A stretch of DNA of 64,000 nt from NCBI RefSeq assembly GCF_900113615.1, contig NZ_FOPZ01000008.1, positions 1-64,000 of the forward strand. The letters are read 5' to 3'. Under the pieces are notes generated by a model. It ran no database searches. It saw nothing but the letters and a program-made list of their open reading frames with translations, and was not told the DNA's origin. Source of the DNA: Halorubrum aquaticum. GTDB lineage: Archaea > Halobacteriota > Halobacteria > Halobacteriales > Haloferacaceae. A program made the translations under genes and the position numbers. Positions 19,611 through 34,427 of this stretch are shown here, piece after piece (within the stretch, counting starts at the first letter, position 1; each line of letters begins with the position of its first letter).

Positions 19611-19681
19611 TCCGCTCTTCACCGTCGTCTCTTCCCGGTCGTCTCCGATCATCACAAGCGATCCCGGCGCGCGTGAGACGA

Positions 19682-19790
19682 GGGGTGGAACCCCGAGGAA
19701 CGCGCGCGAGGGAGGCTGAGGGGACTCGCCGGATCTGCCGGCGAGTCACCGAGGCCGAGGTTGGGGAGGGATGAGGTGCGGTCGCGGTCG
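19682..19790 (+). repeat. Fragment D of the dispersed composite repeat
   Basis: In the 212-base gap after aroC. GAGGTTGGGGAGGGATGAGG (19757-19776) with the following TGCGG closely resembles the core box of copy B at 34035-34057. Before it lie a short hairpin (19682-19694, GGGGT/ACCCC around GGA) and a perfect 10-bp stem (19723-19732 with 19738-19747). No terminal box was found, so this looks like a decayed or partial copy. Confidence 0.55.
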
Positions 19791-30485: not shown

Positions 30486-30536
30486 TTTCCTCACTACGTC
30501 CAGTCACGGGCGCGACTGACCCACGCTCGCTTCGTC

Positions 30537-30735
30537 GCCGGCGCTTCGCGCCGGCTGCCGGAGGGACCGGAGGTCCCTCCCTGTTCGCGTGGATCCCGCC
30601 GTGTGCCCGCTATCTGCGAGCGACCGCGAGCACAGCGAGCGGGAATCGCGGCTGGGGCTTTGAAGCGTACTCCGCAGTCTTCTATTACACTTCGTGCAGC
30701 CGAACGGCTTGGACTTTGGACGTGTTCACCGCGCC
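30537..30735 (+). repeat. Dispersed composite repeat, copy C (3' part), downstream of tRNA-Arg
   Basis: In the 548-base gap between tRNA-Arg and dpsA. Hairpin III (30537-30555, 8-bp stem, TTC loop) and hairpin IV (30561-30579, 8-bp stem, GGA loop) are followed by GAGCACAGCGAGC. Two terminal boxes come next: GCTGGGGCTTTGAAGCGTAC (30651-30670) and GGCTTGGACTTTGGACGTG (30706-30724). The order and the roughly 56-base spacing of the boxes match copy B. The core box and hairpins I-II are missing. From 30736 to 30963 I see no gene or repeat. Confidence 0.7.
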
Positions 30736-33711: not shown

Positions 33712-33961
33712 TAGTCGAGCCGGCTCCGTTGAAACCTCCAGTGGGAGACGTACACCGCCCGCCGGTGGTCGACACACCACCTTTTTCTCGTCGGATTCCC
33801 GGCGCTCACTGCGTTCGCTTCGGGAACCGCTCCTCGAAAACCCTGGAGGGAAAAAGCCGACTCCGCCGTCTTCGACGGCTCCGTCGGTGAACCGCTCACT
33901 TCGCTCGCGGATGCTCGATCCCCATTGTTCAATACAGACGAAGCAACGACCTCTTGTAGTG

Positions 33962-34320
33962 CGGTGGCGCGCCTCCGAGCGCCCGAACGGGCGCGAGGAG
34001 CCCGCGAGGGACGCTGCGAACGAAGTGAGCAGCGAGGCTGGGGAGGCGTGAGGTGCGGGGCTGTGCGGGGCGGGGTGGGACACAAAGGGGCAGTCGCCGG
34101 CGGCGGAGCCGCCGGCTGCCAGAGGCGCGGAGCGCCTCGCTGCCACGAGGACGAAGTCCGGCGAAGCAAGCACCGCAGGAGCGAACAAAGTGAGCGACGA
34201 GGAGCACAACGAGCCGCGCGAGTCCTCGTGGCTGGGGCTTTGACGGTGTTCTCCGCAGGTACGTTTCTTACGTCATACAACCGAGCGGCTGGGGCTTTGG
34301 ATGTGTTCTTCGCGTCGGAA
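33962..34320 (+). repeat. Dispersed composite repeat, copy B (fullest copy)
   Basis: Within a 716-base gap without genes. In order: GGTGGCGCGC box; hairpin I (33979-33994); GCGAGGGACGC; hairpin II (stems 34012-34017 and 34029-34034); core box with one GGGGAGGCGTGAGGT unit (34032-34065); GGGTGGGAC; hairpin III (34096-34116, 9-bp stem); hairpin IV (34122-34138, 7-bp stem); and two terminal boxes, GCTGGGGCTTTGACGGTG (34231) and GGCTGGGGCTTTGGATGTG (34287). The flanks 33712-33961 and 34321-34427 hold nothing I can assign. Confidence 0.75.
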
Positions 34321-34427
34321 ACGAATTCGTACTGTTAGCTCTCGACGTATATCGGCCGTTTCAGACGAGAACGTGTCCGGAGGGGATCTCAAGGAGCCGA
34401 ACTCTCCAGCCGCTACCCTCCAACCGC

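Follow-up and report, generated by a model that had tools for sequence, protein, structure and literature searches.

Two convergent genes lie 717 bp apart in the window (the whole 64,000-nt stretch of Halorubrum aquaticum DNA that was analysed), and the space between them is occupied by a composite non-coding repeat on the forward strand, here called copy B. Its anatomy had been described in an earlier note from a reading of the sequence, and that description agrees with ours in the order of the parts; the list of parts had missed a fifth and larger hairpin, V, at about 34143-34231. Two further copies, A and C, and a fragment, D, lie elsewhere in the window. The features are as follows.

33960 to 34258, forward: copy B as a whole, comprising hairpin I, a GAGGGA linker, hairpin II, the G-rich core, nested hairpins III and IV, hairpin V and the first 3' box (full-length nhmmer match)
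33966 to 34006, forward: hairpin I, with a conserved tandem GA/GA internal loop, CTCC-GA-GCGCCC..GGGCGC-GA-GGAG (sequence; helix covariation in 42 copies; count of the GA loop)
34010 to 34036, forward: hairpin II, a variable stem with a GA tandem (sequence; Watson-Crick and G.A counts)
34034 to 34062, forward: G-rich core GAGGCTGGGGAGGCGTGAGGTGCGGGG (near-invariant columns)
34090 to 34142, forward: hairpins III and IV, a nested double-hairpin insertion missing in most family members (nhmmer model positions 139-184 absent in most copies)
34143 to 34231, forward: hairpin V, a large helix with a GA-rich inner stem (RNAalifold and pair counts; G-T versus A-C asymmetry)
34230 to 34258, forward: first 3' box CTGGGGCTTTGACGGTGTTCTCCGC, the 3' strand of the closing helix (sequence; pair analysis)
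34287 to 34316, forward: second 3' box, which repeats the 3' end as a tandem tail unit (local alignment in the window; tail units in relatives)
approx. 33739 to 34425, no strand: insertion that contains copy B and, on the left, a second repeat (comparison with five relatives)
110 to 391, reverse: copy A, with the 5' module, the core repeated as about seven 15-bp units (194-305), a shortened hairpin V and the 3' box (sequence, local alignment, profile match)
30534 to 30735, forward: copy C, with a III/IV-like doublet, what is left of hairpin V, and two 3' boxes, adjoining tRNA-Arg (sequence, local alignment)
19666 to 19790, forward: fragment D, the core preceded by hairpins I and II in degenerate form, as judged by eye (sequence; core match)

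Elements within the window

The match to R1, the family model, inside copy B spans 34034-34242 (E 3e-11). Hairpin V is closed by what had been termed a 'terminal box', CTGGGGCTTTG, which forms the 3' strand of the helix with CAAAGGGGC as its partner. Hairpins III and IV had been counted with the family core and have to be taken out of it: in most copies of the genus, model positions 1-139 are followed immediately by 184-299, and we therefore regard the pair in copy B as a nested double-hairpin insertion. Similar doublets were found at other points in other copies. To the left of copy B, at 33770-33925, stands a second haloarchaeal repeat with hairpins of its own, CACCTTTTTCTCGTCGGGTTCCCGGCGCTCACTGCGTTCGC..GGAGGGAAAAAGCCGAC.., which also occurs at L311 and L251; in genome G000 it fills the gap at L251, the counterpart of which holds a main-family element in G019.

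The proposed kinship of copies A, C and D with copy B was confirmed by local alignments within the window (E 6e-11 to 0.004). Copy A aligns with B in the core (E 6e-11) and the terminal boxes (E 1e-3), copy C with the 3' part (E 2e-6) and fragment D with the core (E 0.004). Most of hairpin V is lost from copy A, in which about seven 15-bp G-rich tandem units are present (194-305); these units, GTGGGGAGGCGTGAG, are an expansion of the core, and L022 has a similar expansion with a longer unit. Fragment D is more than the bare core it was first taken for, as degenerate hairpins I and II can be recognized by eye in front of it (19666-19785). The fixed order of parts recurs in dozens of copies elsewhere, and no conserved ORF was seen in the copies.

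Form, distribution and setting of the family

The core form of about 245 nt consists of hairpin I, hairpin II, the G-rich core, hairpin V and the 3' box, followed by ~57-bp tandem units. Spelled out, it runs GCGGTGGCGCG.., hairpin I, GAGGGA, hairpin II, GAGGCTGGGGAGGYGTGAGGTGCGG, a variable G/T/C stretch, GGGACTCAAAGGGGCAG, hairpin V and CTGGGGCTTTGGAGGTGTTCACCG; this final box pairs with CAAAG, and one of the pairs is changed from A-U to G-C in 15 copies. Copies are about 240-390 bp long and, like PATEs, have no coding capacity for a transposase. Among the loci that were fetched there was no larger, autonomous version with a gene between its halves. The earlier note had asked for fixed ends, and one of the two exists: the 5' start is constantly GCGGTGG, while the 3' tail consists of variable tandem repeats. 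In the closed genome G050 this 3' side often runs on as one to seven of the ~57-bp units, each repeating the box and ending in TTTATAA. Many copies also have TTATAA 10-18 nt upstream of the start; as a promoter it is doubtful, since the spacing would put the transcription start inside the 5' strand of hairpin I.

Copies in other families are simpler, of the form GGGTGGGACTGAAAGGGGC - hairpin V - GGGGCTTTC, with the 5' module present or absent, and some stand in inverted pairs. Another structured repeat, about 85-110 nt long and separate from the family (CCGCGAGCGACCG..GGAGCACGGAAGTCGCAGCC..GCAGGACCGTCTTCCGG), is inserted in family copies at several different points (L133, L147, L091, L313:16728-17100 and L031). 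At L114:1810-1966, L142:4802-5025 and L159:7040-7487, the outer arms of hairpin V enclose a body in inverted orientation, with the conserved inner motif on the opposite strand. Because this body is inverted or missing in several copies, the fold is evidently not needed by every copy.

Further copies, whose absence from related genomes the earlier note would have taken as a refutation, are present throughout the genus and the class. R1 matches were obtained in 174 of 242 haloarchaeal genomes, representing 59 of 74 genera, and none beyond Halobacteria: all 23 positive genomes in a sample of the phylum belong to the same haloarchaeal order. A DNA search with copy B matched all 22 same-genus genomes among the relatives searched, and records with an organism name were mostly from Halorubrum, with others from Halobellus, Halorussus and Halobium. 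Copy number ranges from 1 to more than 150, with many haloarchaea having no detected copy, and reaches at least 150 (G050), 100 (G008) and 62 (G052) in closed Halorubrum genomes. In the window's own genome the same search gave 22 scored matches, several of them at contig ends, as would be expected if near-identical copies break the assembly.

The family appears to be a chromosomal one. In G008 and G052, 150/150 listed matches lie on the main chromosome, a pattern based on few closed genomes, while 3/16 and 7/13 TnpB genes, respectively, are on other replicons. Only four matches, weak and partial, came from a plasmid collection, one of them to a Halorubrum plasmid, and a phage collection gave none. 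Of 137 elements placed relative to the genes of a codon-based caller, 136 are intergenic, and there is essentially no overlap with called genes. Convergent gaps hold 51/136 elements, an excess over the 191/921 convergent pairs among neighbouring genes; where the upstream gene is co-oriented, its stop codon lies a short distance from the element. On the closed chromosomes of G050, G008 and G052, 16 of the 19 pairs of neighbouring copies less than 2.5 kb apart are convergent, and no orientation bias was found on the scale of replichores. In two Halorubrum species one and the same small gene, which by eye resembles a ferredoxin gene, stands between two convergent elements (L322:16988-17690 and L125:1012-1890).

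Conserved fold and turnover at individual sites

The forward strand keeps one intricate fold while its stem sequences get replaced. Across the core and hairpin V of 63 copies, 97.7% of cells are paired, with compensatory changes in 23 of 40 pairs; when the partner is slid by 1-3 columns, pairing falls to 27-41%. None of 500 shuffles of these copies matched the observed value on any measure, although the copies are related rather than independent, so that shuffle and binomial figures overstate significance and all fold counts are inflated. The helix of hairpin I is 97.3% paired with 7 compensated pairs in 42 copies; in the same test the register of hairpin II was fitted to one length class, which makes its result uninformative. 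Of 97 copies put through a blind scan, at least 71 have the GA/GA internal loop (2x2), between outer stems as different as TCC/GGA, TGC/GCA, GGT/ACC and GAC/GTC, among others, and next to 32 distinct inner stems. In the outer helix of hairpin V, G-T pairs outnumber A-C pairs by 35 to 8, and hairpin II has no such excess (11 versus 11). The conserved tandem G.A pairs, together with the G-T excess, point to the forward strand as the one that folds. The compensatory base changes in the helices, and the strength of the covariation in the stems, are features expected of a structured RNA.

Individual sites tell of gain and loss. In five relatives with 87-92% identity, 1-31 bp separate the two convergent genes that flank copy B, compared with 717 bp in the window, so copy B arrived with an insertion of roughly 690 bp that included the second repeat. 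At 16 further sites, compared with up to four relatives, the picture is mixed, in that some copies are common and others missing with their flanking genes intact; individual copies are missing in close relatives with no obvious replacement. This presence and absence at orthologous sites means that copies have been gained or lost. No target-site duplication was seen at the compared sites, where the intergenic flanks are too diverged for a decision.

At 16 sites of G050 the situation differs, in that the corresponding position carries a copy of matching orientation in most relatives. Missing copies in the G050 clade coincide with gene replacement or internal deletion; there are no clean empty sites, and boundaries are therefore not fixed there. 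The proportion of unchanged pairs is 77.7% between orthologues and 78.8% between paralogues within G050, and the comparison gave 13.3% changes on both sides and 3.9% broken pairs. In alignments at the shared sites, whole stems are exchanged between conserved single-stranded parts. Since the stems of orthologues are as different as those of paralogues, we infer recombination between copies; such replacement of stems at fixed sites could also reflect repeated insertion at one site. At L313:1690-1859, where G050 has an element, three relatives (L339, L359 and L368) have a small gene that looks glutaredoxin-like by eye, as if the two had replaced one another.

Relation to known repeats and possible function

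The nearest known elements in life style are the PATEs (palindrome-associated transposable elements) of Haloquadratum, which are likewise haloarchaeal, palindromic, free of a transposase and high in copy number, with up to about 190 copies per genome (PMC3119063). They are without terminal inverted repeats or target duplication, are related to IS605-type ends, and are targeted by other small repeats, with switched repeats at identical positions (PMC3119063). The link to IS605-type elements sets PATEs (PMC3119063) apart from the present family, in which none was found and in which a multi-hairpin forward strand is conserved across the class. At 32 TnpA/TnpB loci of the IS200/IS605 type, model R1 detected no family member at the ends, and the six matches within about 1.5 kb on either side were neighbours. 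Bacterial REP/REPIN sequences, which are associated with RAYT transposases, are also high-copy intergenic hairpin repeats on the chromosome, whereas the family described here is much longer and has a complex fold, G.A tandems and a G-rich core. It shares with the MITEs and SMRs of haloarchaea (PMC3119063) that it is short, non-coding and inserted in intergenic DNA, and that such repeats insert into each other; it differs from them in that no terminal inverted repeat is common to the family, in which the III/IV doublet of copy B resembles an SMR-like guest. Strong covariation and a conserved single-stranded core recall the structured RNAs of Rfam, where no family matched at the gathering cut-off and nothing credible appeared at E up to 10. 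Our literature search covered open-access papers and returned PATEs, MITEs and SMRs in Haloquadratum with no matching description; an earlier name in subscription papers or ISfinder is possible.

Several explanations compete for these observations. Each copy might be useful in place as a functional non-coding RNA or a cis-acting 3' UTR element, for example in the formation of transcript ends or in transcript stability, with host selection keeping site and fold and mobility being incidental. This would fit the common sites and orientations between species at most of the tested G050 sites, where pairing is kept, as well as the excess in convergent gaps, the short distance to the stop codon of a co-oriented upstream gene, the restriction to the main chromosome in the tested genomes, and the TTATAA 10-18 nt upstream of many copies. 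The spacing of this last motif tells against it as a promoter, however, and a copy number that varies from 1 to more than 150, with many haloarchaea devoid of a detected copy and individual copies absent from close relatives without obvious replacement, makes the explanation doubtful, if a serious one. Alternatively, in a strict PATE/REP scheme, single-stranded DNA hairpins would be recognized in trans by an HUH transposase of the IS200/IS605 type and their structure kept only by selection during transposition. The forward-strand hairpins with tandem GA motifs speak for it, as would a true lack of terminal inverted repeats and target duplications, described for PATEs (PMC3119063); here no family-wide inverted repeat and no duplication was seen. 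Yet genome G019 has no PF01797 match, and thus no RAYT/Y1 transposase gene, although at least 68 DNA matches of the family occur there and relatives lack several of the G019 copies, which weakens any strict reading in terms of present-day mobility; few R1 matches lie within 1.5 kb of TnpB/TnpA genes and none at element ends, there is no replichore orientation bias, and old shared copies still keep their pairing. We consider this scheme improbable.

Still less probable, and by a wide distance, is an ordinary MITE, whose copies would be carried in elements with terminal inverted repeats such as GGCTCTGTTGAAA. Some G050 copies do lie between such inverted repeats, and GGCTCCGTTGAAACC stands to the left of copy B, but on the right it has only a poor partner, and a sequence like it is present at the empty site of relative L176. 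The motif flanks only a handful of 35 copies on either side, there is no general terminal inverted repeat, and with GGCTCTGTTGAAA at few copies and no target-site duplication seen, carriers with these ends account for a minority of copies only; a MITE as the general vehicle was rejected. Finally, GC-rich hairpins could be kept by palindrome correction through template switching, or by chance, with no selection on the fold. Inverted loops and inverted hairpin bodies do indicate DNA processes at the level of palindromes, but against simple correction stand the G.A tandem mismatches and the internal loops that are conserved while the stems around them vary, as well as the near-invariant single-stranded core and the G-T excess on one strand, and we hold this explanation to be scarcely credible.

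The reading that we favour, with a probability of roughly 60%, is a non-autonomous dispersed chromosomal repeat of haloarchaea, REP/PATE-like in life style, whose forward strand has a conserved multi-hairpin fold of ~250 nt. In the choice first posed, between a structured RNA family and a miniature mobile element, each side gains support: the one from genus- and class-wide copies and covariation, the other from presence and absence at sites. Under our favoured reading, copies would occasionally reach new intergenic sites, sometimes within larger insertions as with copy B; ectopic recombination between copies would reshuffle stem cassettes, and selection would preserve the fold of the single strand. 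In all likelihood this strand would function as RNA, arising by read-through from the upstream gene or as a transcript of its own and bound by a putative host factor; recognition of single-stranded DNA during mobilisation would be a close alternative. No mobilising enzyme was identified. More tentatively, these may be large structured RNAs, present in up to 150 or more chromosomal copies per genome and kept by selection at fixed sites for a putative chromosomal function, in which recombination swaps stem cassettes, giving a conserved architecture with interchangeable sequence.

In some Halorubrum chromosomes the repeat accounts for about 1% of the sequence; it is present in most sampled genera and appears to be previously undescribed. 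It probably explains many of the assembly breaks in Halorubrum drafts, and its covariance model can be used on any haloarchaeal genome or transcriptome. It also raises a testable question, namely why copies hold their place and their fold while their stems are traded, and why they settle on the main chromosome to the exclusion of other replicons.
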